Assembly: GCA_002694035.1 (NCBI GenBank)
Contig: NZKY01000054.1
Coordinates: forward strand, 21,749 to 55,331
Source: Opitutia bacterium
Lineage (GTDB): Bacteria > Verrucomicrobiota > Verrucomicrobiia > Opitutales > Seribacteraceae
Length of the DNA stretch: 33,583 nt
Direction: 5' to 3'
The notes beneath the pieces were generated by a model. It had not been told where the DNA came from and ran no database searches. It saw nothing but the letters and a program-made list of their open reading frames with translations. The position numbers and the translations under genes are program-made. This document shows, one piece after another, positions 8,411-32,199 of the stretch (positions within the stretch are counted from its first letter, which is position 1; each line of letters opens with the position of its first letter).

Positions 8411-10561
8411 TCAAATTGGAGAAGCAAAAGGAAACTTATTTTCAAAAGGAAGGTTATCTTCATCAGCCGCATTCGGATTGGAAAAGATTTTGGTTGGATT
8501 TGTGTAAAGGGGATTGATGTTAAATTTTCTCATCAACAAAAGCATGTCCTGCGAACTCGTTTGTATGGTCTTTACTGCCATGGTACTATTTGCTTTCACG
8601 GCAGCTTCGTCATTAGTTTTTTTGATCGCAGATTTCATCGCAACAGCCGACTTAAAATTGACGCTATCTGCAACATTCTCATTATATCCTAGAGCTAGAG
8701 AGGCACCAACAGTTGCACCCTCAGTCGTGCCTTGATAAATTGCTTGTTTGATAATCAAGCCGTCTTCTCCAGATGTAATTCCACCAGTAATTGCCCCGTA
8801 TGTGGAACCATAGCTTACTGCTTCAGCGGCAGATATTGTTTCAAAATCATAAGTTCTTTTATCAGGCAAGGAATCCTTTTTCAGTCCGACTACCTGAAAC
8901 AAAGCACCGTGAGCGGCTCCATGGGCAATTGCCCTTGCAATTTCAATTTCGAATTCCTCGGTTACACCTTGAGGTTTGTCAACAAAAGATAGATTTTTGG
9001 CGGTTATTCCGCCGTAAGTCGAACCTTGAGAAGAATTGTTGATGATTGGTTGCAAAAGGGTAGGGTAGTATACTGCCAGTGCTGTATTACCTAATGAAGA
9101 ACCTAAGGCAGCACCGCTAGCAACAGAAAGGATTTCCTCACGCGTTGTTTTGTTGGCACTATCAGCAATAGTTGGATCGTTTTGAATGTGGATACTGGCA
9201 GCATCAATTGAACCATTTGCACTACCCTTAGCAGTTGCTTTGGCCAACTCATTTCTAGAATACATTTCCCAGCCTTCTTCGTAATCCCAAGATTTATCTA
9301 ATACACTTGCAAGCTGTGCACCCATTGAAGTGCCAAAAGCAACAGATTCTGCTAAACGATTGAGGGCATACCCATTTGCTTTTTCAATGGAGCTGGAAAT
9401 TATTTGATAAGATAATGATTGTGAAATTGACTCAGCAGCTTTCGTAGCAAGATTATTTTCTCTATAAATTTCGGTGCCCGAAGTGTTGTAAACTAAACTC
9501 AATGTCAATCCTGTAGAAATTGATTTAGTGGCTTCAAAAGCGAATAAGGTATTGTCACCTGCCAAAGAGAAGAACTGTTCGGCAACACCTTTCATCGATT
9601 CTTCCCCTAAAATTTTTGCAAAACCCTCAACATTTTGATCTGATAAATTATTTATATTCTGATACAGTAATCCGTCTGTTAAACCTTTTGACGCAAATTC
9701 CAAAAATCTAGACTTCTCTGGATCAAATTTCATAAAGCCCTTTATTCCATCAAACATCATCTGCTGATTTGGCTCATTTCTGCTAGAATTAACAGTACTT
9801 ATACTACCGGTAAAACCATTTCCACTTTCAGTTGCTTCGGATAGGATTTTTAGTAGTGATTTTATTGAATTTCTTACAAGATTTCTTTGGTGTTGATCGA
9901 TGATCTTTAGCTGATTTGGATATTTATTGCTGTTGAGATCAGATTCATTTAATGATCTAGCTAGTTGTTCTGAGATTTTCCTACTCCAATACGAAACATT
10001 TTCGTTCCATGATATTACTTTTTTGGGAATGATATTGGAGTATATGATTTCTGGCATTATGGAAATGTTTGCAGAAATGTCTTCACTCTTTGCTAAACTT
10101 GAATTTATATATGAAACCATTGAAGCATTAATTCCGGCTAATAAAGAATCATCGTTTAGATTAAAGTTCGTTTTATTGTCCACCAAGTAAGAAACTGCAT
10201 ACTCAAGAGCTTCACCAAGGTTTTCATCAGTAAAACTGTTAAAAGTTTTGGTCAGGGATGAAATTAACGCGGTTGTATCAGGCAAGGCTGATTGGTTTAA
10301 ATCTACAACACTCTGAATTGAAGTTGTGGCTGTATCACTAAGTCTTCTTTGATTAGAAATTGAGGGGATATGTGAGCCATCTGTTAGCGAAGGTAGATTA
10401 ATCAGTATAGTAGACTCGACCAAAGCCTTGTCTATTCCGGCATATAAAACATTGACCAATGTCGAAGCATTGATGCAAGTTATAATTAAGCAATGATTTA
10501 ACGGACTAAAATTAAAGGGCATTAATAGAAGTAAGTTACTCGCAACTAATTTAAAGTTCAA
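8411..10561 (-). CDS. Uncharacterised Ala/Ser/Gly-rich protein with repeated GxxxG motifs, in exopolysaccharide locus
   Basis: 716-aa ORF beginning 3 nt after the upstream O-antigen-ligase-like gene; at least six regularly spaced G[AST]xxG motifs (GTSMG, GSANG, GSSLG, GSTYG, GAAHG, GSTYG, GTTEG). Confidence 0.75.
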   Translation of the reverse strand: MNFKLVASNLLLLMPFNFSPLNHCLIITCINASTLVNVLYAGIDKALVESTILINLPSLTDGSHIPSISNQRRLSDTATTSIQSVVDLNQSALPDTTALISSLTKTFNSFTDENLGEALEYAVSYLVDNKTNFNLNDDSLLAGINASMVSYINSSLAKSEDISANISIMPEIIYSNIIPKKVISWNENVSYWSRKISEQLARSLNESDLNSNKYPNQLKIIDQHQRNLVRNSIKSLLKILSEATESGNGFTGSISTVNSSRNEPNQQMMFDGIKGFMKFDPEKSRFLEFASKGLTDGLLYQNINNLSDQNVEGFAKILGEESMKGVAEQFFSLAGDNTLFAFEATKSISTGLTLSLVYNTSGTEIYRENNLATKAAESISQSLSYQIISSSIEKANGYALNRLAESVAFGTSMGAQLASVLDKSWDYEEGWEMYSRNELAKATAKGSANGSIDAASIHIQNDPTIADSANKTTREEILSVASGAALGSSLGNTALAVYYPTLLQPIINNSSQGSTYGGITAKNLSFVDKPQGVTEEFEIEIARAIAHGAAHGALFQVVGLKKDSLPDKRTYDFETISAAEAVSYGSTYGAITGGITSGEDGLIIKQAIYQGTTEGATVGASLALGYNENVADSVNFKSAVAMKSAIKKTNDEAAVKANSTMAVKTIQTSSQDMLLLMRKFNINPLYTNPTKIFSNPNAADEDNLPFENKFPFASPI

Positions 10562-10563
10562 CC

Positions 10564-12153
10564 TTATTGCTCAAAATCTTTGCTAGATAAAACTGAGTAC
10601 TTAAAAGCACAACCTGTAATGATAGAGAAATAAAGTAAGCATGCGGGCGTCTGACTGGGGAAATCTACTATTGAATAAAGCAAAAATAAAACGCTCCCCA
10701 ATAAAAGTATCTTAGCTGTGTCAGATCTAGTTAAAAACAAAAATTTGAGAATATAAAATAAGTAAGGTACGATTAATAAGAATCCAAATAATCCAAATTC
10801 TGAAACTTTTTCTAACCAATCATTATGACCATATCTTACTAGTGGTGTGTATTCAACATGTGCATGTTGAAGACCAAGACTGCGCTCATTTCTAGTCTCT
10901 AATGATTGAAAAATCGGATTTACAATTTTATAAGAACCAAATCCGTAACCAAATATAGGTTTTTCGCTAATTTGAGAAACTAAATCCTTCCACAATAATA
11001 TTCTAAAGGGTAACTTTCCAGCCTTTAAATTATTTACTTGAGAATCGAAGTTGGATAACATTTCTTTCCATGTTTCATTATGGTAAATTTTAGTAAAAAA
11101 AATGGAGCTTACTATTATAATAAAAAATAAAAAAACAAAGTAAAAATATTTTTTATAAGATTTTATTTGTAGAAAAATTCTCGGAAATAACATTATGGTT
11201 AAAAAAAATATAATTAATAGAATTGAGCCAGATTTGGAACCCGAGAATGGTATTGATAAAACTCCTAAAATTATACTAACCATTAGCATTACGAGTTTTG
11301 GTTTTCGATAATCTATGGTTCGAGTTTTTTTGTATTGATGAAGTAGATAAGCAAAAGAAGCGGTTAAGCTTAAAAGAACGAAACATGCCCAATGGTTTTT
11401 ATAGGTAAATGTTGAAAAAAAATAGCGAGGTTCAGGCGTATCCCAAATACCAAGAATCTCCAGTAAATTATCAGATGGAACATAGTTAAGTTTCTGCCAT
11501 AAACCAACAATTGCGAGAAGCCCACTGTTTATTCCCATCAAAAAAATCAAATTACGAATGTGCTTTCGTTTTTTTATGGTTAAAAAAATAATTATAGCGG
11601 CAGACAATTGAATTAATTTATGAAAAAAATCTAGAAGAATTTCATTGTCTCTAAAACTAATGGCAGGAAGATAGGTTTTATTATTTAAAGTAATTTTTTT
11701 TTCATAATTGTTAATTAATTTATCAATTGGAGTGCTTGAAACTTCAAATTTATCATAATAACGATTTTTAAAATCAAAAAATGTTGTCAAAGATAATTGT
11801 TGATTTGACCGAGAAAGGATGTAGTTGTCTTTAAAAAACGATGAGGTAAATATAACCTTTTCAAAGTTTTTTTCTCTAGAAAGTGCTTCTTCTACCGATA
11901 ACTCAGTCCAATCCTGCTCGTTTAATGCCTTGTAAGAAGGATTTAAATATGAGCATACAAAAAGAAATACTACGAGTATTACAGGGGCAAAATATTTAAG
12001 TATGTATTTAAGCCTGTATTCAGAATATAATATTATAATTATATAATACACTAATACTATGTCTATTGTGAATAAGATCCAAGTACCGGCAAGACCTGCT
12101 TTACACCAAGGTACAAGTACAAGCAAAAAAACAATTGGGTTAAGGGATTTCAA
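10564..12153 (-). CDS. O-antigen ligase/polymerase-like (WaaL/Wzy_C) membrane protein
   Basis: Many TM segments, ISEKPIFGYGFGSY ... RYGHNDWLEKVSEFGLFGFLLIVP typical of the O-antigen ligase family. Confidence 0.85.
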   Translation of the reverse strand: MKSLNPIVFLLVLVPWCKAGLAGTWILFTIDIVLVYYIIIILYSEYRLKYILKYFAPVILVVFLFVCSYLNPSYKALNEQDWTELSVEEALSREKNFEKVIFTSSFFKDNYILSRSNQQLSLTTFFDFKNRYYDKFEVSSTPIDKLINNYEKKITLNNKTYLPAISFRDNEILLDFFHKLIQLSAAIIIFLTIKKRKHIRNLIFLMGINSGLLAIVGLWQKLNYVPSDNLLEILGIWDTPEPRYFFSTFTYKNHWACFVLLSLTASFAYLLHQYKKTRTIDYRKPKLVMLMVSIILGVLSIPFSGSKSGSILLIIFFLTIMLFPRIFLQIKSYKKYFYFVFLFFIIIVSSIFFTKIYHNETWKEMLSNFDSQVNNLKAGKLPFRILLWKDLVSQISEKPIFGYGFGSYKIVNPIFQSLETRNERSLGLQHAHVEYTPLVRYGHNDWLEKVSEFGLFGFLLIVPYLFYILKFLFLTRSDTAKILLLGSVLFLLYSIVDFPSQTPACLLYFSIITGCAFKYSVLSSKDFEQ

Positions 12154-12216
12154 ATTCAGTACACTCTTAGGTATTTTTAGGCAAAATTACGAATATATTG
12201 ACAATATTTTTATAAG

Positions 12217-13515
12217 TTGATTGATTATAAGGATACCCAAATCATAGTGTCTATCTATACTTTTCTGCCCAAATTTTCATTTAGACTATTTTGCATTTCG
12301 CTAAGTCTAGCATTTACAATAAATGTTAATGCATTTGTTGAGGGCAAGTTTGGTAAACTTGAAGCTTCAGCAACTCTAAGGGGCGAATATGATTCCCGTG
12401 TTTTTGGAATATCAACAAATTCATTTCAGGGTGCAAAATCTTCTAATAGTCCATTGATTGCCGCCAATGAATTAAAAAGTGAGGACGATCTTATAATAAG
12501 TTTGTCTCCTGCCTTACATTTCACAAAACAGACGAGGTGGTTTACTTTTAGCGGAACTGGGGGTCTTCAAATGACTCGGTATATAAAAAATAATGATAAA
12601 AGCTACACCCAACCTCTCACCACCTTTACAATTGATTTTGATGAAACTTTAACCAAAAACAAACGCGTTTCAAACAATGCTAAAATTAGATTTGATGCTA
12701 CATTTGATCTTGGTCAAAGCGTTGGCGGAAGTGTTTTAGAACAGGATCTTATAGCCTTCACTTATTTTGTTGCCGGTCTTAATGTTCGCTATAACCATAG
12801 CCCTAAATTTGGCGTTGGTGCTGGTACTTCCTACAATGTTCGATATTATCAATCTGGTGCTACACAAGAAAGGGTTTATCATGACATTACAACCATACCT
12901 GTTTCTCTTAGAGCATTCTATATATACTCTGAAAAATTAGATTTTTATTCAGATTATACTTTCAGTCGAACCAACGATGATCAAGCTGGGTCCAATACAC
13001 TTTCTGACTCCATTTCTCACTCGATTACCTTTGGAGCACAAGGGAATTATTCATCAAAACTTTCTGGCAATGCTAATGTCGGATATGCATTGCAAGATTA
13101 CGATAATGAAAAAGTTTCTAATCAAGATAATTTAATCACAAGTATAGGGTTAGATTGGAACCTTAATACCAAAACTTCTTTGGGCTTTGATGTTAACCGA
13201 GCATTTTCACCTTCTGCTCAAGGTTTTTCAACTTTTAGCACTATGGGGCGCGTAAGTGTTTCTCATCGGTTAAATGAAAAAATCACAGGACTTGCATATC
13301 TGAGTGGGGGAAATGTCAGTTACACATATCCTACAAATGCCATAACCTCTCGAGATTCCTCCAGCCTTAATCAATTTGGATTAGGTGCGAGTTTGCAAAG
13401 ACGGTTAACGCCATACATTACAATCAGTGGTGGATACGATTTTTCATTTACAGACAGGTCCATTGAAGAATACAGTCGACATCTTTTTCATGCACAAGCT
13501 ACTGGTCGGTTCTAG
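12217..13515 (+). CDS. Outer-membrane beta-barrel protein of a polysaccharide locus
   Basis: Signal-like N-terminus, alternating beta-strand pattern, terminal Phe (HAQATGRF*), immediately upstream of Wza-like gene. Start uncertain (TTG 12217 or GTG about 12247). Confidence 0.75.
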   Translation: MIDYKDTQIIVSIYTFLPKFSFRLFCISLSLAFTINVNAFVEGKFGKLEASATLRGEYDSRVFGISTNSFQGAKSSNSPLIAANELKSEDDLIISLSPALHFTKQTRWFTFSGTGGLQMTRYIKNNDKSYTQPLTTFTIDFDETLTKNKRVSNNAKIRFDATFDLGQSVGGSVLEQDLIAFTYFVAGLNVRYNHSPKFGVGAGTSYNVRYYQSGATQERVYHDITTIPVSLRAFYIYSEKLDFYSDYTFSRTNDDQAGSNTLSDSISHSITFGAQGNYSSKLSGNANVGYALQDYDNEKVSNQDNLITSIGLDWNLNTKTSLGFDVNRAFSPSAQGFSTFSTMGRVSVSHRLNEKITGLAYLSGGNVSYTYPTNAITSRDSSSLNQFGLGASLQRRLTPYITISGGYDFSFTDRSIEEYSRHLFHAQATGRF

Positions 13516-13518
13516 GTT

Positions 13519-14154
13519 ATGATTAAATGGGTTTTGTTTTTAAATTGTGTTTTTATTCTAAATCCACTTGTAGGGCAGAATAAGTATAATGATGATCCTT
13601 CAATCATTAAAGATCCCACGGGATATAAATTAAGAATTGGAGATAGCCTGAGAATTGCGGTACGTGGAGAAACCGAGACTGCTGTAGATGCTATAATCGA
13701 TTCAGAGGGCAAAGTTCGAGTTGTTTATCTCGGAGAACTTAAGGTTTCTGGGATGAATTCAAAACAAGTCGAGAAACTTATTGTTAACGAGTATCAAAAA
13801 AACTTAATTTATCAAAATCCAATTGTTAGTATATTAATAACAAAATATTCTGATCGGGTTGTTTTTCTATCTGGATCTGTTAATCGAAAGGGACCTTATA
13901 TTTTTCCTCCAGAAGTTGAGGCAATGAATATTGTAGAAGTTATAGCTAGGGCAGGCGGATTCACTGATATTGCACGTAAAAACAAAGTATTTGTTACCCG
14001 AACTTTTTATGATGTATCTGGACAAGTGAAAGACACCAAAACATATGAGGTCAATGTAGAAGCGTTGAGCACAGGAAACCTACTTCTGGGTTCAGCAAGT
14101 AGATTTTGGATTTATCCCGGTGATCGAATTGAAGTCCCCGAGAGACTTATTTAA
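13519..14154 (+). CDS. Polysaccharide export protein, Wza-like (Poly_export/SLBB)
   Basis: YKLRIGDSLRIAVRGETETAVDAIIDSEGKVRVVYLGELKVSGM...VFLSGSVNRKGPYIFPPEVEAMNIVEVIARAGGFTDIARKNKVFVTR. Confidence 0.9.
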   Translation: MIKWVLFLNCVFILNPLVGQNKYNDDPSIIKDPTGYKLRIGDSLRIAVRGETETAVDAIIDSEGKVRVVYLGELKVSGMNSKQVEKLIVNEYQKNLIYQNPIVSILITKYSDRVVFLSGSVNRKGPYIFPPEVEAMNIVEVIARAGGFTDIARKNKVFVTRTFYDVSGQVKDTKTYEVNVEALSTGNLLLGSASRFWIYPGDRIEVPERLI

Positions 14155-16406
14155 TGGAAGAAGAGATTGAAAATTTAAATTCGCAGGGATCAGTTCGTTC
14201 TAAAAGTAAGACCAAAAGTATTGCTGAAATATTACTTGTTATTAGGGACAGATGGCTTTTGGCACTATCTTTAGCATTACCGATTTCATTAGGATATGTT
14301 TACCTGAAATTTCAGGACACAGAATTTTTTCAGTCCTCTTCATCTTTTCGTTTAATCCCGCCCCCCGCAGTTCTCAATCTTCAGAAGGTTGATCGAGACA
14401 CACAAGTTCAGGGTCTTGTTGCAAAACATAGGGAAGGATTGAATAGCCAAGAACTTAAAGCAAGTGTAATTCAAAAAATTTCCGATAATCCCGAGTCTAA
14501 ATCAATTATGTTGGCGCCTTTCTTAAGGGAAGGAATACCAGTTGGAGTTGAGTCAACTATTAGTTATTCAATAAGTGTTTCTCCCCCTTCTGAAGGAAGA
14601 CCGCGATTTGTAATAAGTTCAACTTCTAGAAGTGCAAAAGGGGCAATGCTTGTTGCTGATTTGGTTCAGTCAGAATACGAAAAACTTCATAAAAGTAAAA
14701 AGAATCAACAAGTTGAATCTGTTAGAAATCTTCTAGAAAAGTTGCTTGCACAAAGTATTGAGAAAGAATCACAACTTGCCGACGAAATGTCAGCCTATAA
14801 GAAAAACTTAGGCTTACCATTTATTGAAGATGAAAAAAGGGACACTGCAGATAGGAAAAGCCAATACTCTGCAGAGGTCACCACATCTAAACTCGAACAA
14901 ATTAAAATAGATTCGCTTTTAAGACAAGTGTTACAAATTCAGGCTAGAATTGGCTCTAGAAATAGCTCAAGTAGATCTAAGGATATCGATAATGACATAG
15001 CATTAATCAAAGATTTTTTTGAGATTGATGCGATTGAGAGTTTTGGCAATGTACCTTCCTTAAGAAAAACTCTATTTGATCTCGAAAAAACACGTATGAG
15101 GTATCAAGAGGGATCACCAGGTTATCTAGAGAGACATCCTAAAATGCTTGAAAATGCTAGACAGGTAAATGAAGTAAAGAATTCATTGATTAAGGAAGTG
15201 ACTTCAGCCATTGAAGATTTGAAAGACAAAAGGGTTCAACTCACTGCACAAGAAAAAGAGTTCCAGCAAGCGATGGAAAAAGTTCAACAAGATTCAATGA
15301 AACTAAGTGAAATTGAAGAATGGTTAATCAATAAAGAGAGGGAGCTCACTGTGGTTAGAACAAGTACGGATCAAATTCAGAAAAGGTTGAATGAAGTAAG
15401 AATTGAACAAGCATTGCCTTCTGAACAAGAGGAACCTTTGCATAAAGAGCAATATGCATTTTTACCTGGTGGTCCGTACACTCCGGATAAAGCAAAAATC
15501 AAGAGAACTGGTATTTATATTTTTCTAGGTTTGTTCATTCTCATTCCTGTAAGTCTTGAATTAGTAGACAACCGAGTAAAATCTCCATTTGATGTAGAGG
15601 TTTTCATTGGTAAAGATTTAATAGGTGGTATTCCTAAAATATCCGATGTGGAGGAGGCACACAGACCTTTGATCGTTGGTAATGACCTTGATGATGGACT
15701 TACAGAATCTTTTCGAAGTATGTTTAGCAGAATTCAAATGAATTCTCAGACTGAATACCCCAAAACAATTCTCATTACTTCAGCAATTCCAAGTGAGGGG
15801 AAAAGTTTAATTTCAGCTAATCTAGCATACAGTTGTGCAAATCATGGTCGCAGGACTGTGTTAGTTGATTTTGATTTAAGACGACCTGGATTGCACAAAT
15901 TTTGTGGAATAGAAAACAAGACTGGGCTTGTTTCTCTTGTAAATGTGGCTTCCTCAAAAGAAAATTTAAAGAACTCTATTAATGATTCGGTTCAAGAAAT
16001 TCATCCTAATCTATACATCTTACCATCAGGAGGAAAGACGCGTGCAGCAACTGAAATGTTAGAACAAAAAGAATTTGATATTGTTCATAATGAATTAAAA
16101 GAAATGTTTGATGTTATAATTGTGGACAGTCCCCCTATTGGTTTATTTCCGGATTCCCTGGCAATCGCTAGAAAGGTAGACGATGTTCTTTTCGTAACGC
16201 GTTATGGAAAAGTTTCGAGAAAAATTGCAAAAAACCTTGTAGAGAACCTTGAAGAAACAGGCGTAAATGTTCTAGGAGTCGTATTAAACGATCTACCACA
16301 GAAGAAAGCTCCAGGTTATTATTATTCTGGCTATTATGGATATGGGTATTTTCGCTATAAATATTACAATAAATATTATGGAAAAGAGAAAAAGTCTGAA
16401 GCATAG
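14154..16406 (+). CDS. Polysaccharide co-polymerase / bacterial tyrosine autokinase (Wzc/BY-kinase)
   Basis: Wzz-like N-terminus; Walker A TSAIPSEGKSLISANLA; A' VLVDFDLRRPGLH; B DVIIVDSPPIG; Tyr-rich tail. Overlaps previous stop by 1 nt (TAATG). Confidence 0.95.
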   Translation: MEEEIENLNSQGSVRSKSKTKSIAEILLVIRDRWLLALSLALPISLGYVYLKFQDTEFFQSSSSFRLIPPPAVLNLQKVDRDTQVQGLVAKHREGLNSQELKASVIQKISDNPESKSIMLAPFLREGIPVGVESTISYSISVSPPSEGRPRFVISSTSRSAKGAMLVADLVQSEYEKLHKSKKNQQVESVRNLLEKLLAQSIEKESQLADEMSAYKKNLGLPFIEDEKRDTADRKSQYSAEVTTSKLEQIKIDSLLRQVLQIQARIGSRNSSSRSKDIDNDIALIKDFFEIDAIESFGNVPSLRKTLFDLEKTRMRYQEGSPGYLERHPKMLENARQVNEVKNSLIKEVTSAIEDLKDKRVQLTAQEKEFQQAMEKVQQDSMKLSEIEEWLINKERELTVVRTSTDQIQKRLNEVRIEQALPSEQEEPLHKEQYAFLPGGPYTPDKAKIKRTGIYIFLGLFILIPVSLELVDNRVKSPFDVEVFIGKDLIGGIPKISDVEEAHRPLIVGNDLDDGLTESFRSMFSRIQMNSQTEYPKTILITSAIPSEGKSLISANLAYSCANHGRRTVLVDFDLRRPGLHKFCGIENKTGLVSLVNVASSKENLKNSINDSVQEIHPNLYILPSGGKTRAATEMLEQKEFDIVHNELKEMFDVIIVDSPPIGLFPDSLAIARKVDDVLFVTRYGKVSRKIAKNLVENLEETGVNVLGVVLNDLPQKKAPGYYYSGYYGYGYFRYKYYNKYYGKEKKSEA

Positions 16407-21389: not shown

Positions 21390-23675
21390 TTATTTGGTTG
21401 TCATTACCCATACACCATCCCATTCACCCTTAGGTGGATTTTTTTTCATATGGTCACACCTATCTAAGTATAATTGAGCTGCTTTATCATTAGGATTAAT
21501 TTTTTTAACATCTTTAAAAAGTTTTATAGCCTGATCCCACTTTGCCTCATTCCACGAACGGTATCCATCATTAAAAATTCCAAGTGCTTCAACTAAATTT
21601 GGGTAACTACTATCATCATGAAAATCGAGCACCTCATAAACTCCTACAGGTTCTGTCTTACCCTTAACAATAACATAATCAACTTGTCTGGTTCGATAAG
21701 TTGCTTTGACCGCTTTGTAGGTGAATTCACTTATAAGTATATGAGCACCGTATTGCTTGCAAGCACTCTCAATTCTAGCTGCAAGATTAACACCATCACC
21801 AATTACGGTATAATCCATTCTTTTGGGAGATCCAATATTACCAGAAACAATCGAATCTGTATTGATACCCATTCCATGATCTATGGCCATTTTCCCTTCA
21901 GTAGATCTTTTATCATTAAAGACTTTAAGATCAGTCATCATTCTAATGGCAGCCCGAACAGCTCTGTCAGGATCATCATCATGTGGCACAGGTGTTCCGA
22001 AAATACACATCATTGCATCACCAATAAACTTATCAAGCATGCCACCCTCATCTGTGATACAATCAACCATTATGGTAAAGTATTCATTCAGTAATTTGAC
22101 AGTTCCTTGAGCACCTAATTCCTCGGTGATCGTAGTAAAACTTCTAACATCAGAGAAAAGTACGGTACCTACACTTTGTTTGCCGCCCATAATATCATCA
22201 CTATCACCAGCATTCATAAGTTGGTCAGCTAGTTCGGGGTCCATATAGCGTGACATTGTAGACTTCATCCGCTTTTCCGAGCTAATGTCTTCAATCATCA
22301 ACATAATACCGAGATTCTCCTTTTTTTGACCAATAAGAGGAAGAAGAGAAATATTCACCGATAATTTCTCGCTATCAAGAATGATTTCATGATCTAGAAA
22401 TTCTTCTTCTTCTTCAACTTTTTCAAGTTTGTTAAGCAACCAATCATTTTTATTACTCAAGATGTCTTTTATTGGTTGCTCGAGAATATCGGAAACAATC
22501 GGAATCTTCAATATCCTTAGGCCAGCTGTATTACATGTTTTGACAATACCATTTTCATCAATTGTGAGCACAGCATCATGCATACTGGAAAGAATACTTT
22601 CAGAGTAGTTCTTCTGATTCTGAACATCGTCAAACAGTTTGGCATTTTCAATACCCATGGAAATCTGGGAAGTAAACGCAGCAAGTCTTTTTTCATCTTC
22701 AGAATTAAATGAACCTCCTCTTTTATTTAATACCTGACTTACCCCAATTGTTTTACCTTCTTTGTTTAAGACAGGCATGCAAAGAATTGATCTTGTAAAA
22801 AATCCAGTCTGTTTATCAAAACTTGGATTAAATCTTAAATCAGCGTATGCGTGAGGAATGTTGACGGGTTTACCGGTAGTAAAGACAGTCCCCGCAATTC
22901 CAAGATGATTAGGGAATTTAATAACCGATTTTTCATCCAAACCTTCCCCGACTTCTGTATAAAGTTCATTTGTTTTTTCGTCGTTTATGAAAAGGGTAGC
23001 CCTTTCGCAGTCTAACATTGTAGAAATAGTCGTAATAATTTTCTGCAAAAGTGGAGTTAGTTCCAATTCAGATGATACTTGTGAAACAACATCAAGGAAT
23101 TCAAGCTCTTGCTTTCTGGCAGCTTCTATTTGTTCGACAATGATATTTCCCTGAATTGCAATGGCAGCCTGTTCAGTCATTGCTTCAAGTAGGTCTAAAT
23201 CGTCTTGTTCGAATTCACCGTCAATTTTGTTTAGAATTTGAGAAACTCCAATTTCCTCACCAGAAACAGTTCGTAAAGGTGCACAAAGAATACTTTTAGT
23301 TCTAAATCCTGTCCTGACATCAACAGCTTTATTAAAGCGGTCATCTTTATAAGCATCATGGATTATAGCCCCTTCATTTCTTGTAAAAACCCAACCCGCA
23401 ACTCCTTTGGTGTTTAATATTCTGATTTCTCTTCTAAAACTCCCCTGAGCTATTCTTGAATATAGTTCACCGGTTGCCGGATCGTTAAGGAAAATTGTGC
23501 CTCTTTCAGCACCAATGGTTGTAGTTGTAATCTTTACTAGTGTTTCTAGTGCTTCATCGAGGCTCTTGGTTTTGGCGAGGTCAGTAGTTACCTGTAGCAG
23601 CATGTCGGAAAACCTTTCTGTCCTTTTAGACTTCGGGTTAGAAGATTTCTCTTTATTTTTTTCTTTTTCTTGCAT
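21390..23675 (-). CDS. GAF-GAF-PAS class III adenylate/guanylate cyclase
   Basis: Two GAF domains (GAERGTIFLNDPATGELYS...; CERATLFINDEKTNELYTEV...), PAS-like segment, catalytic core VLFSDVRSFTTITEELG...MLDKFIGDAMMCIFGTP...YTVIGDGVNLAARIESACKQYG. Confidence 0.95.
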   Translation of the reverse strand: MQEKEKNKEKSSNPKSKRTERFSDMLLQVTTDLAKTKSLDEALETLVKITTTTIGAERGTIFLNDPATGELYSRIAQGSFRREIRILNTKGVAGWVFTRNEGAIIHDAYKDDRFNKAVDVRTGFRTKSILCAPLRTVSGEEIGVSQILNKIDGEFEQDDLDLLEAMTEQAAIAIQGNIIVEQIEAARKQELEFLDVVSQVSSELELTPLLQKIITTISTMLDCERATLFINDEKTNELYTEVGEGLDEKSVIKFPNHLGIAGTVFTTGKPVNIPHAYADLRFNPSFDKQTGFFTRSILCMPVLNKEGKTIGVSQVLNKRGGSFNSEDEKRLAAFTSQISMGIENAKLFDDVQNQKNYSESILSSMHDAVLTIDENGIVKTCNTAGLRILKIPIVSDILEQPIKDILSNKNDWLLNKLEKVEEEEEFLDHEIILDSEKLSVNISLLPLIGQKKENLGIMLMIEDISSEKRMKSTMSRYMDPELADQLMNAGDSDDIMGGKQSVGTVLFSDVRSFTTITEELGAQGTVKLLNEYFTIMVDCITDEGGMLDKFIGDAMMCIFGTPVPHDDDPDRAVRAAIRMMTDLKVFNDKRSTEGKMAIDHGMGINTDSIVSGNIGSPKRMDYTVIGDGVNLAARIESACKQYGAHILISEFTYKAVKATYRTRQVDYVIVKGKTEPVGVYEVLDFHDDSSYPNLVEALGIFNDGYRSWNEAKWDQAIKLFKDVKKINPNDKAAQLYLDRCDHMKKNPPKGEWDGVWVMTTK

Positions 23676-26043: not shown

Positions 26044-26168
26044 AAAATATTCTATTAAATTAAATTTTTATCTCATTGCAATCAAGATTACTTTTTCCAT
26101 TTTAATTTTGCTTGCAATGTTTCTTTGACAGATTTTTTCTATTTAACTCGTCCTACTTAGACTCAACA

Positions 26169-27356
26169 ATGAAACTTTTATTATCAAAATTTACTTGCAT
26201 TATATTCCTTCTGTTTGGATCTTGCTCGGAAAATATTGATCAAACTGAAAAGAATGGCACCAATCCTTCTGGCGATACTGACCGAAGAAAATCCTTGGTC
26301 GAAACGCTCACGAAGAATTCTTCTTTCGAAAAAAAAGTCGACTTTGAAAATCTTTTAAGCTCAGGTAAAAATCTACCTACAATAGATGTCGACACTGATA
26401 ACGAAGATATAACAATTATTGGTACAACCAAATCTTCCCCCAATATTTCGGAAAAACTTGATGGAAATGATTTAGCCGCAGAAAAAGCTTTTAAAAATCT
26501 TGAAGTTAATTCATTGGAGCATCAAAAATCAATTGATGATCTTCGCTTAATAAACCGTAAGAAAGATCAAACAATTTCTACTCTTACAAAACTTAATGAT
26601 GAACTTGTAAAAGAAATCAAAAAATTGAAAGGGCAGACTTATTCCAATTTTGCAATTGAAAGTTCTATTCCAAACAAACCCGTAACCGATCTTGGCGTTT
26701 TAAGAAGTGAAATAAAGAAACTAAAAAATAATCTTGCTCTCAAGTCGGAGGAATTGAAAAGTCTAAGATTCAGAAATGATTCGTTAGAAGGTAGAATAAT
26801 CGAATTAGAAAAATCACCATCCATAACAACATCTGATTTACTTCCTAGATTTAACGAACAAAACAGCTTAAGCAATATTACAAGTTCTAACTACAGAGGA
26901 GAAATTGTATCTGGTGAATGTACATTGCAATTTGAAGCTGTTGTTACAGCGTTGAATGGCAAAAGCAAAGAAGCTTTTTTTACTGAATTTTTTGTTTTAC
27001 CATCACACTTGGAAGAGATTCTAAGAAAAGGCGGAATTCAATTGAGTGAATATTCTGGTGTTGATACCTATGCCGAATTGTGGGCACGTTCCCGAAAAAA
27101 TTCATTTCTTTTTCCAGGTGTACACAAAGATATTAGATCGTTATTGCTTGACTTTATTCAAAATGGAAGCGGGCAAAGGATTCGTACGGATGTCAATGGG
27201 GAGGGCGTTGTCTCTGGTCTTTCTTCCGGTAAATATTTCGTAATTGGCACTGCTTCTTTGGGTAAGGTTGGTGTTACTTGGAATGTTCCGGTTATTTTAA
27301 ACAATGGTAATAATAAGATTTCACTTACACTAGCAAATTGTGATTGGAGCCTTTAA
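26169..27356 (+). CDS. Predicted lipoprotein with central coiled coil and C-terminal beta-sandwich-like region
   Basis: MKLLLSKFTCIIFLLFGSCSEN (lipobox-like LFGSC); coiled coil KKLKNNLALKSEELKSLRFRNDSLEGRIIELEK. ORF track start 26112 is probably too long. Confidence 0.75.
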   Translation: MKLLLSKFTCIIFLLFGSCSENIDQTEKNGTNPSGDTDRRKSLVETLTKNSSFEKKVDFENLLSSGKNLPTIDVDTDNEDITIIGTTKSSPNISEKLDGNDLAAEKAFKNLEVNSLEHQKSIDDLRLINRKKDQTISTLTKLNDELVKEIKKLKGQTYSNFAIESSIPNKPVTDLGVLRSEIKKLKNNLALKSEELKSLRFRNDSLEGRIIELEKSPSITTSDLLPRFNEQNSLSNITSSNYRGEIVSGECTLQFEAVVTALNGKSKEAFFTEFFVLPSHLEEILRKGGIQLSEYSGVDTYAELWARSRKNSFLFPGVHKDIRSLLLDFIQNGSGQRIRTDVNGEGVVSGLSSGKYFVIGTASLGKVGVTWNVPVILNNGNNKISLTLANCDWSL

Positions 27357-27445: not shown

Positions 27446-29608
27446 ATGTCACCTGAACAATCATCAGACACGAGTAAACTTCAACTTAGTTTAAAACAGA
27501 AGTTAAGCATAATTCTATCATTTTCGAAGGACAAAGTTATTGAACAAATACAATGTGTTTGGTTTATAATAATGTACCTTATCGTTTTTCAAATCCTTGT
27601 CCTTGGTCTTCCTATTGTCTATTCCTTGATGATAGCAGTTGGGATTCTCATAGTGATAGTTGGTCTAGCTTTTTTTATGGAAGGCCTTCGACTTGGACTA
27701 ATGCCCCTTGGTGAGATTTTGGGTTCAACCCTCCCTAGAAAAAAAATCTTTGGACTTCCGTGTCTACCAACAAGTCTTGCATTTGGATTTGTTCTCGGTG
27801 CATTCGCCACATTCGCAGAGCCTGCGATAGGGGTTTTGAGAGCTGCTGGTTCTGGAGTTGATCCTACCGCAGCACCTCTACTTTGGACAATATTAAACAC
27901 CGGTGCTGGCTTATTAGTAAATTGTGTAGGAGTAGGAGTAGGTATTGCAGTTTTGCTTGGTGTACTTCGTTTTTATAAAGGATGGTCGCTAAAACCTTTT
28001 ATTTACGCCGGAGTAATCATTCTATCGTGCTTGACACTTTATATGCAGTTTTCTGATGACAGATTAAAGCATGTTCTAGGTCTAGCGTGGGATTGTGGGG
28101 CTGTCACAACTGGGCCGGTTACCGTTCCTTTGGTTTTAGCATTAGGTATTGGGGTGTGCAGGATTGTTTCCACTGGTGGATCTAGTAACACAGGTTTCGG
28201 GGTTGTTACCTTAGCGTCCCTTTTTCCAATACTTGCTGTAATATGTTACGCTTTATACCTTTTTAATACTGATAACTACTACTATGCATCACAGTCTAAT
28301 GCTGAATGGCACAAGCAAGCTGGTGAATATGGGAAAAATTATCCTAAAGATCTACAAAAGTTTGGTGATTTGAAAGCACAAGCGCAACTTGAGGCAACCC
28401 AAGGAATAGATGAGTCTGAACTGTCCTGGTCATTGTCACCCGATGAAACTGTCATGGTGGAGAATTATTTAAACGAAAATAAACGTTTACCAGAAGGATA
28501 CACATTAAAAACCAAAGTTACCGAAGGTGAAATCAGTGCCTCTAAACTAACATCTGGTGAAAGAGAAAATGTAGAAGTGAAGGGTGCAAAAACATATGTT
28601 GTTAGAGAAGGTTTCAAAGCACCTGACGGAGTTTGGAATCCGGATTCGGAAATAGCTTCTGCTTTTTCAAATAATTTAGATTTCTTCCCAAACACATTCC
28701 GACCCCAAGAAGTTGATAAGAACGAAAATGGTAAAGTTGATCCTGGGGAAGACTTTTACAGTATCGAGCCTGATGGATCTATTAACTACTCAAAAACTGA
28801 CGGTAAGTTAACAGGCCCAGATCAGGATAGGGGAGCACTTGAGGGAGCTATTTGGGCTATTGTGCCTCTTTGCTCTATTTTATTACTAGTCTTAATAGGT
28901 GGTCTAAGACAGAAGCCAAAACATTTAGACGAACTTTTCATTGGTATTACTTGTGCTGTTGTTGGGATGTGCTTGTTCAATCTAGGTATAGCATTGGGAC
29001 TGACTCCTCTTGGTGAACAACTTGGGGGTAATGTTGTTTCTAGTTTTGCATCTATCCAACCATGGCAAAGTGAAGGTTTCGTTGAACCCTTATTTAAGTC
29101 ATCTACTGCAGGTAAATGCTTAGCTATATTATTTGGTTTTCTTCTTGGCTACGGAGCTACGTTAGCTGAACCTGCTCTTAATGCTCTCGGGTCAACAGTC
29201 GAAAAAATTACAGTTGGTGCATTTAAGAAAAATTTATTAATGCAAGCTGTTGCTACAGGTGTTGCTTTGGGGATCGCGACTGGAGTTGCGAAAATAGCTT
29301 TCAACTTGGAATTATGGTATTTATTGATCCCCCCCTATGCTATGCTGTTAATTCTTACTTTTATTTCGAGCGAAGATTTTGTTAATTTTGGATGGGATAG
29401 TGCTGGTGTTACAACAGGTCCGATTACGGTGCCTCTTGTATTAGCAATGGGATTAGGAATTGGAGCTAAAACTGGAGCAATAGATGGTTTTGGAGTTTTG
29501 TCCTTAGCGTCGGTAGGTCCAATTATCACCGTATTGACAGTAGGTCTATTGGTAAGGAAAAAACCAAGCTCTGCAGAAAATGTAGAAAAAACAATGGAGG
29601 CAGCATAA
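27446..29608 (+). CDS. DUF1538-type multi-pass membrane protein (putative transporter) with two related halves and a large inserted loop
   Basis: Duplicated motifs: GLRLGLMPLGEILG / GIALGLTPLGEQLG; FATFAEPAIGVL / GATLAEPALNAL; WDCGAVTTGPVTVPLVLALGIG / WDSAGVTTGPITVPLVLAMGLG; GFGVVTLASLFPI / GFGVLSLASVGPI. Confidence 0.85.
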   Translation: MSPEQSSDTSKLQLSLKQKLSIILSFSKDKVIEQIQCVWFIIMYLIVFQILVLGLPIVYSLMIAVGILIVIVGLAFFMEGLRLGLMPLGEILGSTLPRKKIFGLPCLPTSLAFGFVLGAFATFAEPAIGVLRAAGSGVDPTAAPLLWTILNTGAGLLVNCVGVGVGIAVLLGVLRFYKGWSLKPFIYAGVIILSCLTLYMQFSDDRLKHVLGLAWDCGAVTTGPVTVPLVLALGIGVCRIVSTGGSSNTGFGVVTLASLFPILAVICYALYLFNTDNYYYASQSNAEWHKQAGEYGKNYPKDLQKFGDLKAQAQLEATQGIDESELSWSLSPDETVMVENYLNENKRLPEGYTLKTKVTEGEISASKLTSGERENVEVKGAKTYVVREGFKAPDGVWNPDSEIASAFSNNLDFFPNTFRPQEVDKNENGKVDPGEDFYSIEPDGSINYSKTDGKLTGPDQDRGALEGAIWAIVPLCSILLLVLIGGLRQKPKHLDELFIGITCAVVGMCLFNLGIALGLTPLGEQLGGNVVSSFASIQPWQSEGFVEPLFKSSTAGKCLAILFGFLLGYGATLAEPALNALGSTVEKITVGAFKKNLLMQAVATGVALGIATGVAKIAFNLELWYLLIPPYAMLLILTFISSEDFVNFGWDSAGVTTGPITVPLVLAMGLGIGAKTGAIDGFGVLSLASVGPIITVLTVGLLVRKKPSSAENVEKTMEAA

Positions 29609-29609
29609 G

Positions 29610-30725
29610 ATGAGTGACTTAAATTCAAGCAACCATATGTCATTATTAACGCTGATTTTGCCCAGAGAATCAGTCAGTGAAGTTTCCAGTGCTATTGAGA
29701 AAATTGGTGCTAACGGAATTGTACAAATAAATGCGCGAGGTTCTGTACTCAATGAAGGTGGTGGAATTTTAAATAAAATGTTCCCACCACCTGCACCTGA
29801 ACAGCAAATATTACAGGTTTTAGTTAACAATTCTGATCAGGATAAGATAGTCGATGCGGCAATCCAATCTGGAAATTTAGACAAAGTGGGTGCTGGTGCA
29901 GTATTTTCAATTTACTGTAATGAAGTTCATTTAAGCTCTCAATATCCTACTTCAATAAGCGACAATGAAGAAGAAGCAACAAGCTCAAAATCAGGAGATC
30001 TCGAAGCAATATGTTGTGTCTGTGAAATAGGAGTTGCAGAGGATATTGCAAAAGCCGCCTTACTAAGCGGAGCACCGGGCCCAACTGTTACTTTTGGTGA
30101 AGGTGGTGGAATTCGTGATAAAATTCCACTTCTGAGGATTACCAAAGGACCCGAAAAAGAATTTGTATGGTGCGTAGTAGATAAGTCGGAATCTGATGAG
30201 ATTTTCGCAGATATGGCTCGAGCCGGTAGAATCACTGAACCTGGTCGTGGATTCATGTATTCGATTCCAGTTTCTTCGGGTTTAATTAACATATCGAGTA
30301 CAGTTTCATCTTCAACTCATGGAGCAAATATGGAACAAATCATAGCTGCTCTTGACGATTTGAAGGGTAATAAAGAGTGGAGACAATCTTTGGATTCAAA
30401 CAAAGGCAAATCTCTAAAAACTACATATTTAGAAAATTTAGTTGGAGTCTACTGTATTATACCTCGAGATAATTATTCTGATGTATACGATGCAATTTTG
30501 GATTCAGGGGCTCCAGGAGTTAGTACAAATTTTGGTGTAATGACAGATTCTGATTCCGAACAGGGCCAAAATGAAGAGTGGGCTTTGGTTTACACTTCTA
30601 TCGGACCCTCTGGTGTTGAGGATTTGAGAAACTCTGTGACTAAAAAAATAACCGAAATTGGCATCGACCGTTTCGCATTTTACACATTGCCAATACCTAG
30701 AGCACTCACATATTTGGGCGGATAA
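29610..30725 (+). CDS. Protein with three tandem PII-like (GlnB-like) domains
   Basis: Three related units (about aa 11-106, 131-222, 275-363): SGAPGPTVTFGEGGGI / DSGAPGVSTNFGVM / GANGIVQINARGSVLNEGGGI; PII C-terminal-like IFADMARAGRITEPGRGFMYSIPV and IVDAAIQSGNLDKVGAGAVFSIYC. Start 1 nt after the DUF1538 stop. Confidence 0.75.
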   Translation: MSDLNSSNHMSLLTLILPRESVSEVSSAIEKIGANGIVQINARGSVLNEGGGILNKMFPPPAPEQQILQVLVNNSDQDKIVDAAIQSGNLDKVGAGAVFSIYCNEVHLSSQYPTSISDNEEEATSSKSGDLEAICCVCEIGVAEDIAKAALLSGAPGPTVTFGEGGGIRDKIPLLRITKGPEKEFVWCVVDKSESDEIFADMARAGRITEPGRGFMYSIPVSSGLINISSTVSSSTHGANMEQIIAALDDLKGNKEWRQSLDSNKGKSLKTTYLENLVGVYCIIPRDNYSDVYDAILDSGAPGVSTNFGVMTDSDSEQGQNEEWALVYTSIGPSGVEDLRNSVTKKITEIGIDRFAFYTLPIPRALTYLGG

Positions 30726-30742: not shown

Positions 30743-31612
30743 TTATCTAAATTCGAAGACAGATAAATTCCATTCGTTCATATCCTCAGATATAAGTTCA
30801 AAATTAATTTTCATTTCATTTAAAAGTTTGACATATTCTTGATGAATGTTGCTAGACTCATTTTTAAGGATACCAGACAAAATTAATTTCCCATTTTTGT
30901 TTACCAAATTGCAGAGGATAGAGGCATTTTGTATTAGCGTGCTGGTTTCAATGTTAGAAAAGACAACATCGAATTTATTTGTTGATTCTAATTCACCAAG
31001 GCACTTTTTAGATACTACAATATCATCAATTTGATTTAGTTGAGCATTTATTAGAGTATTTTTTACGGCTTCATCATCGTTGTCTACAGCATGCACATTT
31101 TTAAAGCCAATCAACGATGCCGTAAGGGCAATAATCCCAGATCCGCATCCAATATCAATAAGTAATTCCGAACAGGGCTTTTGAAGATTTTGAATTAAAT
31201 ATTTTAGACACAATTTTGTAGTTTCATGGTTCCCAGTCCCAAAAGCCATTCCAGGGTCGATGAGGAGTTTTTGGTTACTGTGAATGTTTTTGAATTCATT
31301 CTCTCTCCAAGTTGGGATAAAGTGAAAATCATTAAGATTCCAAGGGACAAAATGTTTTTTGTAAGAATTTTTCCAATCCTCATTTTTGATTGTACTGTAT
31401 TCGAAATTAATATCAGTGGTAAAAGGAGTGCATTTGTTAAATTGAGATATTTCTAATTCAGTTTCGGAAATATTCTTGAAATAGCCTACTAATTCATAAA
31501 TTTTTGTCTGATTTTTATATAAAATACTCCAATTGTGTGGATATAAATCGTAAAGAACATTTTCTATCTCTTCCAAGTGATTTTCATTGAGCGAAGTATG
31601 TACCTTTATCAT
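30743..31612 (-). CDS. prmA: Ribosomal protein L11 methyltransferase
   Basis: LLIDPGMAFGTGNHETTKLCLKYL...LLIDIGCGSGIIALTASLIGFKNVHAVDNDDEAV. Start MIKVHTSLNE at 31612 preferred over 31657. Confidence 0.92.
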   Translation of the reverse strand: MIKVHTSLNENHLEEIENVLYDLYPHNWSILYKNQTKIYELVGYFKNISETELEISQFNKCTPFTTDINFEYSTIKNEDWKNSYKKHFVPWNLNDFHFIPTWRENEFKNIHSNQKLLIDPGMAFGTGNHETTKLCLKYLIQNLQKPCSELLIDIGCGSGIIALTASLIGFKNVHAVDNDDEAVKNTLINAQLNQIDDIVVSKKCLGELESTNKFDVVFSNIETSTLIQNASILCNLVNKNGKLILSGILKNESSNIHQEYVKLLNEMKINFELISEDMNEWNLSVFEFR

Positions 31613-32199
31613 TGTGGAAAAGGTGTAGTACCAAGTGCCAAATCTCTTATCACCCACGGGAGAAGTATATGTTCAGCGGCTTGTACTTTTTGTCTAACTA
31701 AAGGTAATTCATCATCGTTCATTATTCTCACGGGTGCTTGAGCAATTATTTCTCCATCATCTACTCTTTCGTTCACCCAATGAACAGTGCATCCGGTAAT
31801 TTTTACATTTTTATTAAAGGCCTGTTCTATAGCATTTAAGCCTTGGAAACTAGGCAAAAGACTAGGATGCAGGTTAATAATTCTATTTTGGAAATGATTA
31901 ATAAAGTTGGACGATAAAATTCTCATAAATCCAGCTAGCACAATTAAGTCAGGATTCAAATCACTGATTTTTTGAATCCAGTTATTTTCTTCATTTTTTT
32001 CAATGATTGATTTTTTGAATCCCGGGGATAAAAAATCATTCACAATATCGTTCTGTGAAGCAATTTTTAGGATTTCAGCATCTGGATTGTCTGTAAAGAT
32101 GCCAACGATGTTAGCATTTGCTAACTGGTCTTGTTGGGAAGCTTTAATAACAGCAAGTGCATTTGTACCCTTTCCTGAACCCAAGATTACAACATTCAT
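31609..32199 (-). CDS. purN: Phosphoribosylglycinamide formyltransferase
   Basis: VVILGSGKGTNALAVIKA; DLIVLAGFMRILSSNFI...RIINLHPSLLPSFQGLNAIEQAF; GCTVHWVNERVDDGEIIAQA. Confidence 0.95.
   Translation of the reverse strand: MNVVILGSGKGTNALAVIKASQQDQLANANIVGIFTDNPDAEILKIASQNDIVNDFLSPGFKKSIIEKNEENNWIQKISDLNPDLIVLAGFMRILSSNFINHFQNRIINLHPSLLPSFQGLNAIEQAFNKNVKITGCTVHWVNERVDDGEIIAQAPVRIMNDDELPLVRQKVQAAEHILLPWVIRDLALGTTPFPQ

Follow-up and report, generated by a model that had tools for sequence, protein, structure and literature searches.

PII domains are metabolic sensors that normally occur as separate chains assembling in threes. All known PII proteins are homotrimeric and hold nucleotide in the clefts between subunits; residues 38, 39, 87, 88 and 90 come from one subunit, the facing subunit supplies Thr29, residue 64, Arg101 and Arg103, and the B-loop and the T-loop base belong to the same subunit (PMC8395244). 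In the GlnK-AmtB and SbtB-SbtA systems, a PII-family regulator stands beside a transporter and acts through its T-loops, which the PII trimers insert into the transporter (PMC10117731). The ligands are known in both cases (AMP/cAMP for SbtB; ATP/ADP/2-oxoglutarate for GlnK), and SbtB, which is encoded with SbtA, binds adenyl nucleotides including cAMP. In the NIF3-family protein SA1388, a PII-like domain is inserted into a longer chain; there is one PII domain per chain, and trimers are formed between chains (PMC1779786). On the transporter side, the Na+(Li+,K+)/H+ antiporter UmpAB of Halomonas zhaodongensis is a heterodimer of two separate proteins, and the paper describing it makes no mention of PII (PMC5484666). 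No natural tandem or fused PII protein was found in the open-licence literature; a description in a subscription journal is possible.

The locus analysed here lies in a window of 33,583 nucleotides, the whole stretch of DNA that was studied, from a Verrucomicrobiota genome with Opitutae MAGs as its closest named relatives, and consists of a gene for a fused DUF1538 membrane protein followed by a gene for one chain with three PII domains, called below the triple-PII protein. The main features of the pair are as follows, with hhalign probabilities given for the comparison with PII proteins encoded behind DUF1538 genes (DUF1538-linked PIIs).

27446..29608, + strand: fused DUF1538-DUF1538 membrane protein, 720 aa, first gene of the pair (PF07556, 2.4e-106, in two stretches)
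29596..29600, + strand: GGAGG, ribosome-binding-site-like, within the 3' end of the DUF1538 gene and 9 nt before the ATG
29610..30725, + strand: triple-PII protein, 371 aa (stop included), ORF intact, ATG at 29610
29631..29939, + strand: PII domain 1 (D1), residues 8-110 (PF00543, 3.8e-7; hhalign 98.5%)
29991..30281, + strand: PII domain 2 (D2), residues 128-224 (hhalign 99.5%)
30282..30425, + strand: D2-D3 linker, residues 225-272, two predicted helices, no PII match
30426..30722, + strand: PII domain 3 (D3), residues 273-371 (hhalign 97.6%; model pLDDT 80.7)

The triple-PII ORF is real and encodes three PII units: it is intact and preceded by the GGAGG, it has matches in 32 of 56 related genomes (identity at most 78%), and homologs with three domains were found across many Verrucomicrobiota families. 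Orthologs at 65-78% identity are present in the same genus and family. Two copies deserve separate mention. Genome G045, of the same order, carries two DUF1538-triple-PII pairs (L134 and L133) on different contigs, and in L134 the third domain is strongly diverged (14 bits). The ortholog in genome G030 (L033/L036) has an in-frame TGA in D1, which is likely an assembly error, since the gene is broken across two contigs and this copy sits at the end of one of them.

Just upstream of the DUF1538 gene, a + strand gene (26112-27353) encodes a 414-aa protein with a lipoprotein-like N-terminus (FGSC) and a long coiled coil, for which no Pfam family scored above cut-off. Downstream, on the - strand (30743-32199), a PrmA-like methyltransferase gene is convergent with the triple-PII gene and shares about 49 nt with the next ORF (31609-32199); judged by eye, that ORF resembles phosphoribosylglycinamide formyltransferase (PurN). 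Further away, a polysaccharide export group (10567-16403) comprises an O-antigen ligase, a beta-barrel porin, a Poly_export/SLBB protein and a ParA-like/Wzz-type ATPase; the adjoining 716-aa ORF (8414-10561, - strand) matched no Pfam family.

The earlier note had proposed that three diverged units in this chain each resemble PII, and that a third without the PII fold would speak against it. Pfam P-II (PF00543) matches D1 directly (residues 10-107), D2 and D3 lie below its reach, and in one homolog (L037) D3 alone scores over its cut-off. In profile comparisons, all three domains matched the DUF1538-linked PIIs over 91-95 columns and matched one another at 95.5-97.9%; the DUF1538-linked PIIs, which also belong to Pfam P-II, match canonical PII at 96%. 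The membership of D2 and D3 runs through this group; when the two domains were compared by HHalign directly with canonical PII, the scores were too low to be of use (1.4% and 8%, respectively). Column-shuffled control profiles reached a median of about 0.1-0.3% against canonical PII, with one outlier, a shuffled D3 profile, at 49%, for which reason the direct comparison of D3 was set aside. The linker between D2 and D3 gave no match to PII (0.1%). Secondary structure prediction returned beta-alpha-beta-beta-alpha-beta for each of the three domains. As D3 is the weakest third by sequence, it was also folded alone with AF2 (pLDDT 80.7); the best PDB matches of this model were nearly all GlnK, GlnB, SbtB, CPII, PotN and their kin, the top match being GlnK (E 1.7e-6) and the TM-score reaching 0.78. 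The C-terminal domain of HisG was considered as the fold of D3 (E 0.05) and rejected in favour of PII. Profile comparison and the D3 model thus left no third without a predicted PII fold, and all three domains can be assigned to the PII superfamily (ferredoxin-like, GlnB/GlnK-related). The proposal of three fused, non-identical PII domains stands to that extent, and some of the motifs on which it was built fared less well. The note had also passed over the transporter partner, the relatives with one or two domains, the conserved linker between D2 and D3, and the loss of the canonical ATP/2-oxoglutarate residues throughout the family.

Conservation was scored over 15 lineages of three-domain proteins, defined as clusters at 60% identity, and the elements within the domains are located as follows.

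29886..29906, + strand: D1 B-loop VGAGAVF, residues 93-99, from the alignment
30096..30155, + strand: D2 T-loop GEGGGIRDKIPLLRITKGPE, residues 163-182, with the pattern GxGxG[VIL]R[DE]xLxxLR over the 15 lineages
30237..30260, + strand: D2 B-loop EPGRGFMY, residues 210-217, from the alignment
30507..30527, + strand: D3 alpha1-beta2 turn GAPGVST, residues 300-306, in which Ser305 is the Thr29 equivalent
30540..30578, + strand: D3 acidic loop MTDSDSEQGQNEE, residues 311-323, at the T-loop position of the alignment

Of the three units, to all of which a strand end of the GxGxxF type had been ascribed, D1 (VGAGAVF) and D2 (in the form PGRGFMY) possess it; D3 has IDRFAFY instead. Likewise, a Gly-rich T-loop segment had been read in two domains. 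For GEGGGI (residues 163-168) this holds, as GEGGG aligns with the T-loop base (GlnK 33-37); NEGGGI (residues 48-53), however, lies further out and is not conserved, D1 having ARGS at the T-loop base, so the two segments do not occupy equivalent positions. The replacement of the T-loop in D3 by an acidic loop was borne out, MTDSDSEQGQNEE aligning at that place.

D2 is the best conserved domain, with a mean information of 3.08 bits against 2.39 and 2.48 for the other two. It retains the T-loop base, Lys58 and the B-loop, and its invariant residues are G154, G167, R169, K183, E184, G212 and G214; only D2 has Lys58, Glu59, Gly37 and the T-loop Arg (R169) without exception across the 15 lineages. 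The signature of the DUF1538-linked PIIs (GxGxG T-loop base, Lys58-Glu59 and PGxG B-loop) is found in D2 of nearly all 15 lineages. Of its elements, D1 keeps only the B-loop, in which the Gly87 position is Gly in 15/15 lineages (also 15/15 in D2) and the Gly89 position in 14/15 (15/15 in D2). D3 keeps only the alpha1-beta2 turn (GAxGx[ST]); it has lost the T-loop base, and the B-loop GxG is absent from D3 in all 15 lineages. Conversely, the Thr29 position is Ser or Thr in D3 of 15/15 lineages, in D2 of about half (by weight) and in D1 of none of the 15. The linker has a higher mean conservation than either D1 or D3, and its motif A-x3-Q-x5-D-x7-W-R (A239, Q243, D249, W257, R258) occurs in 15/15 lineages. 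Judged by its profile it is outside any PII fold; one guess is that it contacts the transporter or acts as a clasp closing a ring.

The lead of D2 in conservation and the freely varying loops of D1 and D3 could also mean that D2 is the sole working PII domain, with D1 and D3 as degenerate arms that serve as scaffold or transporter contacts and no closed ring. We regard this as rather improbable: D1 and D3 retain specific cleft residues family-wide, and D3 modelled alone takes on a well-formed PII fold, which exceeds the needs of a bare scaffold.

The partner gene ends one base before the triple-PII start. Its 720-aa product has two clusters of hydrophobic segments; the first DUF1538 half is most like UmpA (NCBIfam 1.3e-56) and the second most like UmpB (1.5e-47). 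UmpA and UmpB of Halomonas zhaodongensis are thus homologous to the two halves, but they are separate proteins, while the protein here is fused and has a long middle insert. It is a member of the DUF1538 family and not a UmpAB equivalog, since its scores of 191.6 and 162.2 bits are below the equivalog cut-offs of 490 and 500 bits; its function is presumably transport. A PDB sequence search found no DUF1538 structure. Within the insert between the DUF1538 repeats (28715-28753, residues 424-436), we noted an EF-hand/dockerin-like calcium-loop motif, DKNENGKVDPGED, which is kept in relatives as DSNGNGKLDPGED (L034) and DTNGNGLLDEKED (L035).

The pairing of the two genes is widespread. Among 243 genomes spread across Verrucomicrobiota, the 19 with a triple-PII match are exactly the 19 with DUF1538 (PF07556), and a PII gene follows DUF1538 at every locus whose downstream side is readable. 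Outside Verrucomicrobiota, where the loci covered are on plasmids only, PII also stands behind DUF1538 at the readable loci, with one domain in Alphaproteobacteria and two in Clostridia. Verrucomicrobiota contain DUF1538-linked PIIs of all kinds, with one, two and three domains. The three-domain form always accompanies a fused DUF1538 protein, and the one-domain form mostly accompanies separate DUF1538 genes. The triple-PII protein belongs to this DUF1538-linked group, and the two genes form, as their arrangement in the sequence demonstrates, an operon-like pair. It is the pairing of the genes that suggests binding of the triple-PII protein to the DUF1538 protein.

The likeness to GlnK-AmtB and SbtB-SbtA concerns a PII-family regulator beside a transporter; these regulators differ in being homotrimers on trimeric transporters of other families, whereas the partner here is DUF1538. 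The triple-PII protein shares with SA1388 the presence of PII in a longer chain, but has three such domains instead of one. Its nearest counterparts are within its own group. The one-domain proteins (WP_277367899.1 of Chelativorans; one on a Methylocystis rosea plasmid), likewise behind DUF1538, are closest to D2, with which they share the GRGxG T-loop, the EKE strand start and the PGxGxxF B-loop; they differ in being about 112-122 aa long and presumably homotrimeric, with a partner that is usually two separate DUF1538 genes. The two-domain proteins of Clostridia (WP_021431978.1, Paraclostridium bifermentans) and of some Verrucomicrobiota also have tandem PII domains behind DUF1538, but each of their domains has a GlnK-like turn and loop.

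The Pfam name of the family, P-II, nitrogen regulatory protein, might suggest an ordinary GlnB/GlnK nitrogen regulator that was triplicated and lies beside DUF1538 by chance. This is highly improbable. The DUF1538 pairing is without exception in the loci read, and the genome carries two ordinary 116-aa GlnB/GlnK genes elsewhere, so the triple-PII protein is not the nitrogen PII of the cell. Moreover, what defines canonical GlnB/GlnK is missing, namely the GDGK B-loop with Lys90, Arg101 and Arg103 of the C-loop and the Tyr51 T-loop motif. At the Lys90 position D1, D2 and D3 have A, F and A, and the one- and two-domain relatives have I/V/L, so that among the aligned DUF1538-linked PIIs the lysine has given way to hydrophobic or small residues; in the alignment, Arg101 and Arg103 were absent from the DUF1538-linked PIIs examined, and no Tyr51 uridylylation motif was seen at the three T-loop positions. 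By these residues the triple-PII protein is not a canonical GlnB/GlnK. Sensing in the canonical MgATP/2-oxoglutarate mode is unlikely given the replacement of Lys90 and the absence of Arg101 and Arg103, which also makes the far side of the cleft already non-canonical. The retained Gly loops, Lys58 and Thr/Ser29 point to the continued binding of some small ligand. A 761-aa protein encoded on the - strand (21393-23675), at a distance of about 3.8 kb from the DUF1538 gene, has the architecture GAF-GAF-PAS together with an adenylate/guanylate cyclase domain and is a possible source of a cyclic nucleotide ligand.

The domain tree of the 15 lineages placed all D1, all D2 and all D3 in three clades (support 0.88, 0.92 and 0.90), each of which splits into the same two genome groups. 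These parallel clades place a single triplication before the divergence, after which the domains were inherited together and diverged as one unit; the triplication is old and has been inherited vertically. The first domains of the clostridial and verrucomicrobial two-domain proteins group in a separate clade (support 0.82), so the two-domain tandem probably arose independently of the triple. That the two-domain Verrucomicrobiota loci are two separate genes was considered and rejected, as a single open frame spans both domains.

The cleft-half pattern is the only evidence here that bears on quaternary structure. In the one- and two-domain DUF1538-linked PIIs both cleft halves lie in the same domain (Thr29 89%, Gly89 89%, Gly35 100%). 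In the triple-PII proteins the halves are lost in complement, D1 having the B-loop without Ser/Thr29 and D3 having Ser/Thr29 without the B-loop. A ring in the order D1->D2->D3->D1 has an intact D2/D3 cleft, a partial D1/D2 cleft and a D3/D1 cleft that is dead on both sides, and only this ring yields one intact, one partial and one dead cleft. The argument rests mainly on Thr29 and the GxG loop and would be expected by chance about one time in three; the pattern is consistent in all lineages. Ser/Thr29 may also be structural, and the loss of Arg101 and Arg103 likewise counts against the argument. Owing to this complementary loss, a covalent pseudo-trimer with unlike clefts, as the earlier note had envisaged, is likely and is favoured here. 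A full-chain AlphaFold model was built on only four closely related sequences (pLDDT 45.6, pTM 0.33), so the packing of the domains cannot be read from it, and its Foldseek matches to GlnK were not relied upon.

The same pattern weighs on another arrangement, in which three 371-aa chains would stack so that D1, D2 and D3 each build their own symmetric ring (nine domains); ligand binding and attachment to the transporter would then be left to the D2 ring alone. It would agree with the homotrimeric state of all known PIIs (PMC8395244) and with the possession of both cleft halves by D2, and the two-domain relatives could make two stacked rings; as those of Clostridia and Verrucomicrobiota cannot close a ring alone, linked PII domains may assemble between chains. 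Homotrimers of like domains do not fit well, however, since D1 and D3 would be left with half-clefts: the halves of a domain's own cleft should go together, and D1 and D3 show opposite losses in every lineage. We consider the stacked arrangement unlikely, though not negligible.

Our reading of the locus as a whole, towards which we lean on balance, is that of a single-chain PII regulator dedicated to the upstream DUF1538 (UmpAB-like) transporter. By analogy with GlnK-AmtB and SbtB-SbtA, its most likely role would be to gate this transporter, docking by means of the D2 T-loop. The chain would close upon itself as a single PII-like ring, with its domains ordered D1->D2->D3, and dock on the cytoplasmic face of the transporter mainly via the strictly conserved T-loop of D2, the linker helices (AxxxQ...D...WR) perhaps clamping the docking. 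A small ligand, probably not the canonical MgATP + 2-oxoglutarate, would bind chiefly in the D2/D3 cleft, the D1/D2 cleft being modified and the D3/D1 cleft dead, and would switch the docking, so that cation/H+ exchange would be gated by a metabolic signal. The asymmetric three-domain form would thus replace a symmetric homotrimer and match the fused, asymmetric transporter. The fuller picture is put forward tentatively, as possible and short of probable: a natural PII pseudo-trimer, covalently linked, whose three clefts differ from one another and which, with a new ligand, is seated as a monomer on a fused DUF1538 cation/H+ antiporter.

Cross-talk between PII sites is hard to study because the three sites are identical. 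In a natural single-chain PII with separately encoded domains each cleft could be mutated alone, and the lineages serve as evolutionary replicates of which PII sites can be lost, while the one-, two- and three-domain forms allow comparison. The findings point to a widespread, uncharacterised regulatory link between PII-type sensing and DUF1538 cation/H+ antiporters. If the pseudo-trimer is true, it would be the first known case in which gene fusion has broken the symmetry of a PII ring, and the three fused sensor pockets on one transporter could each take an evolutionary course of their own.
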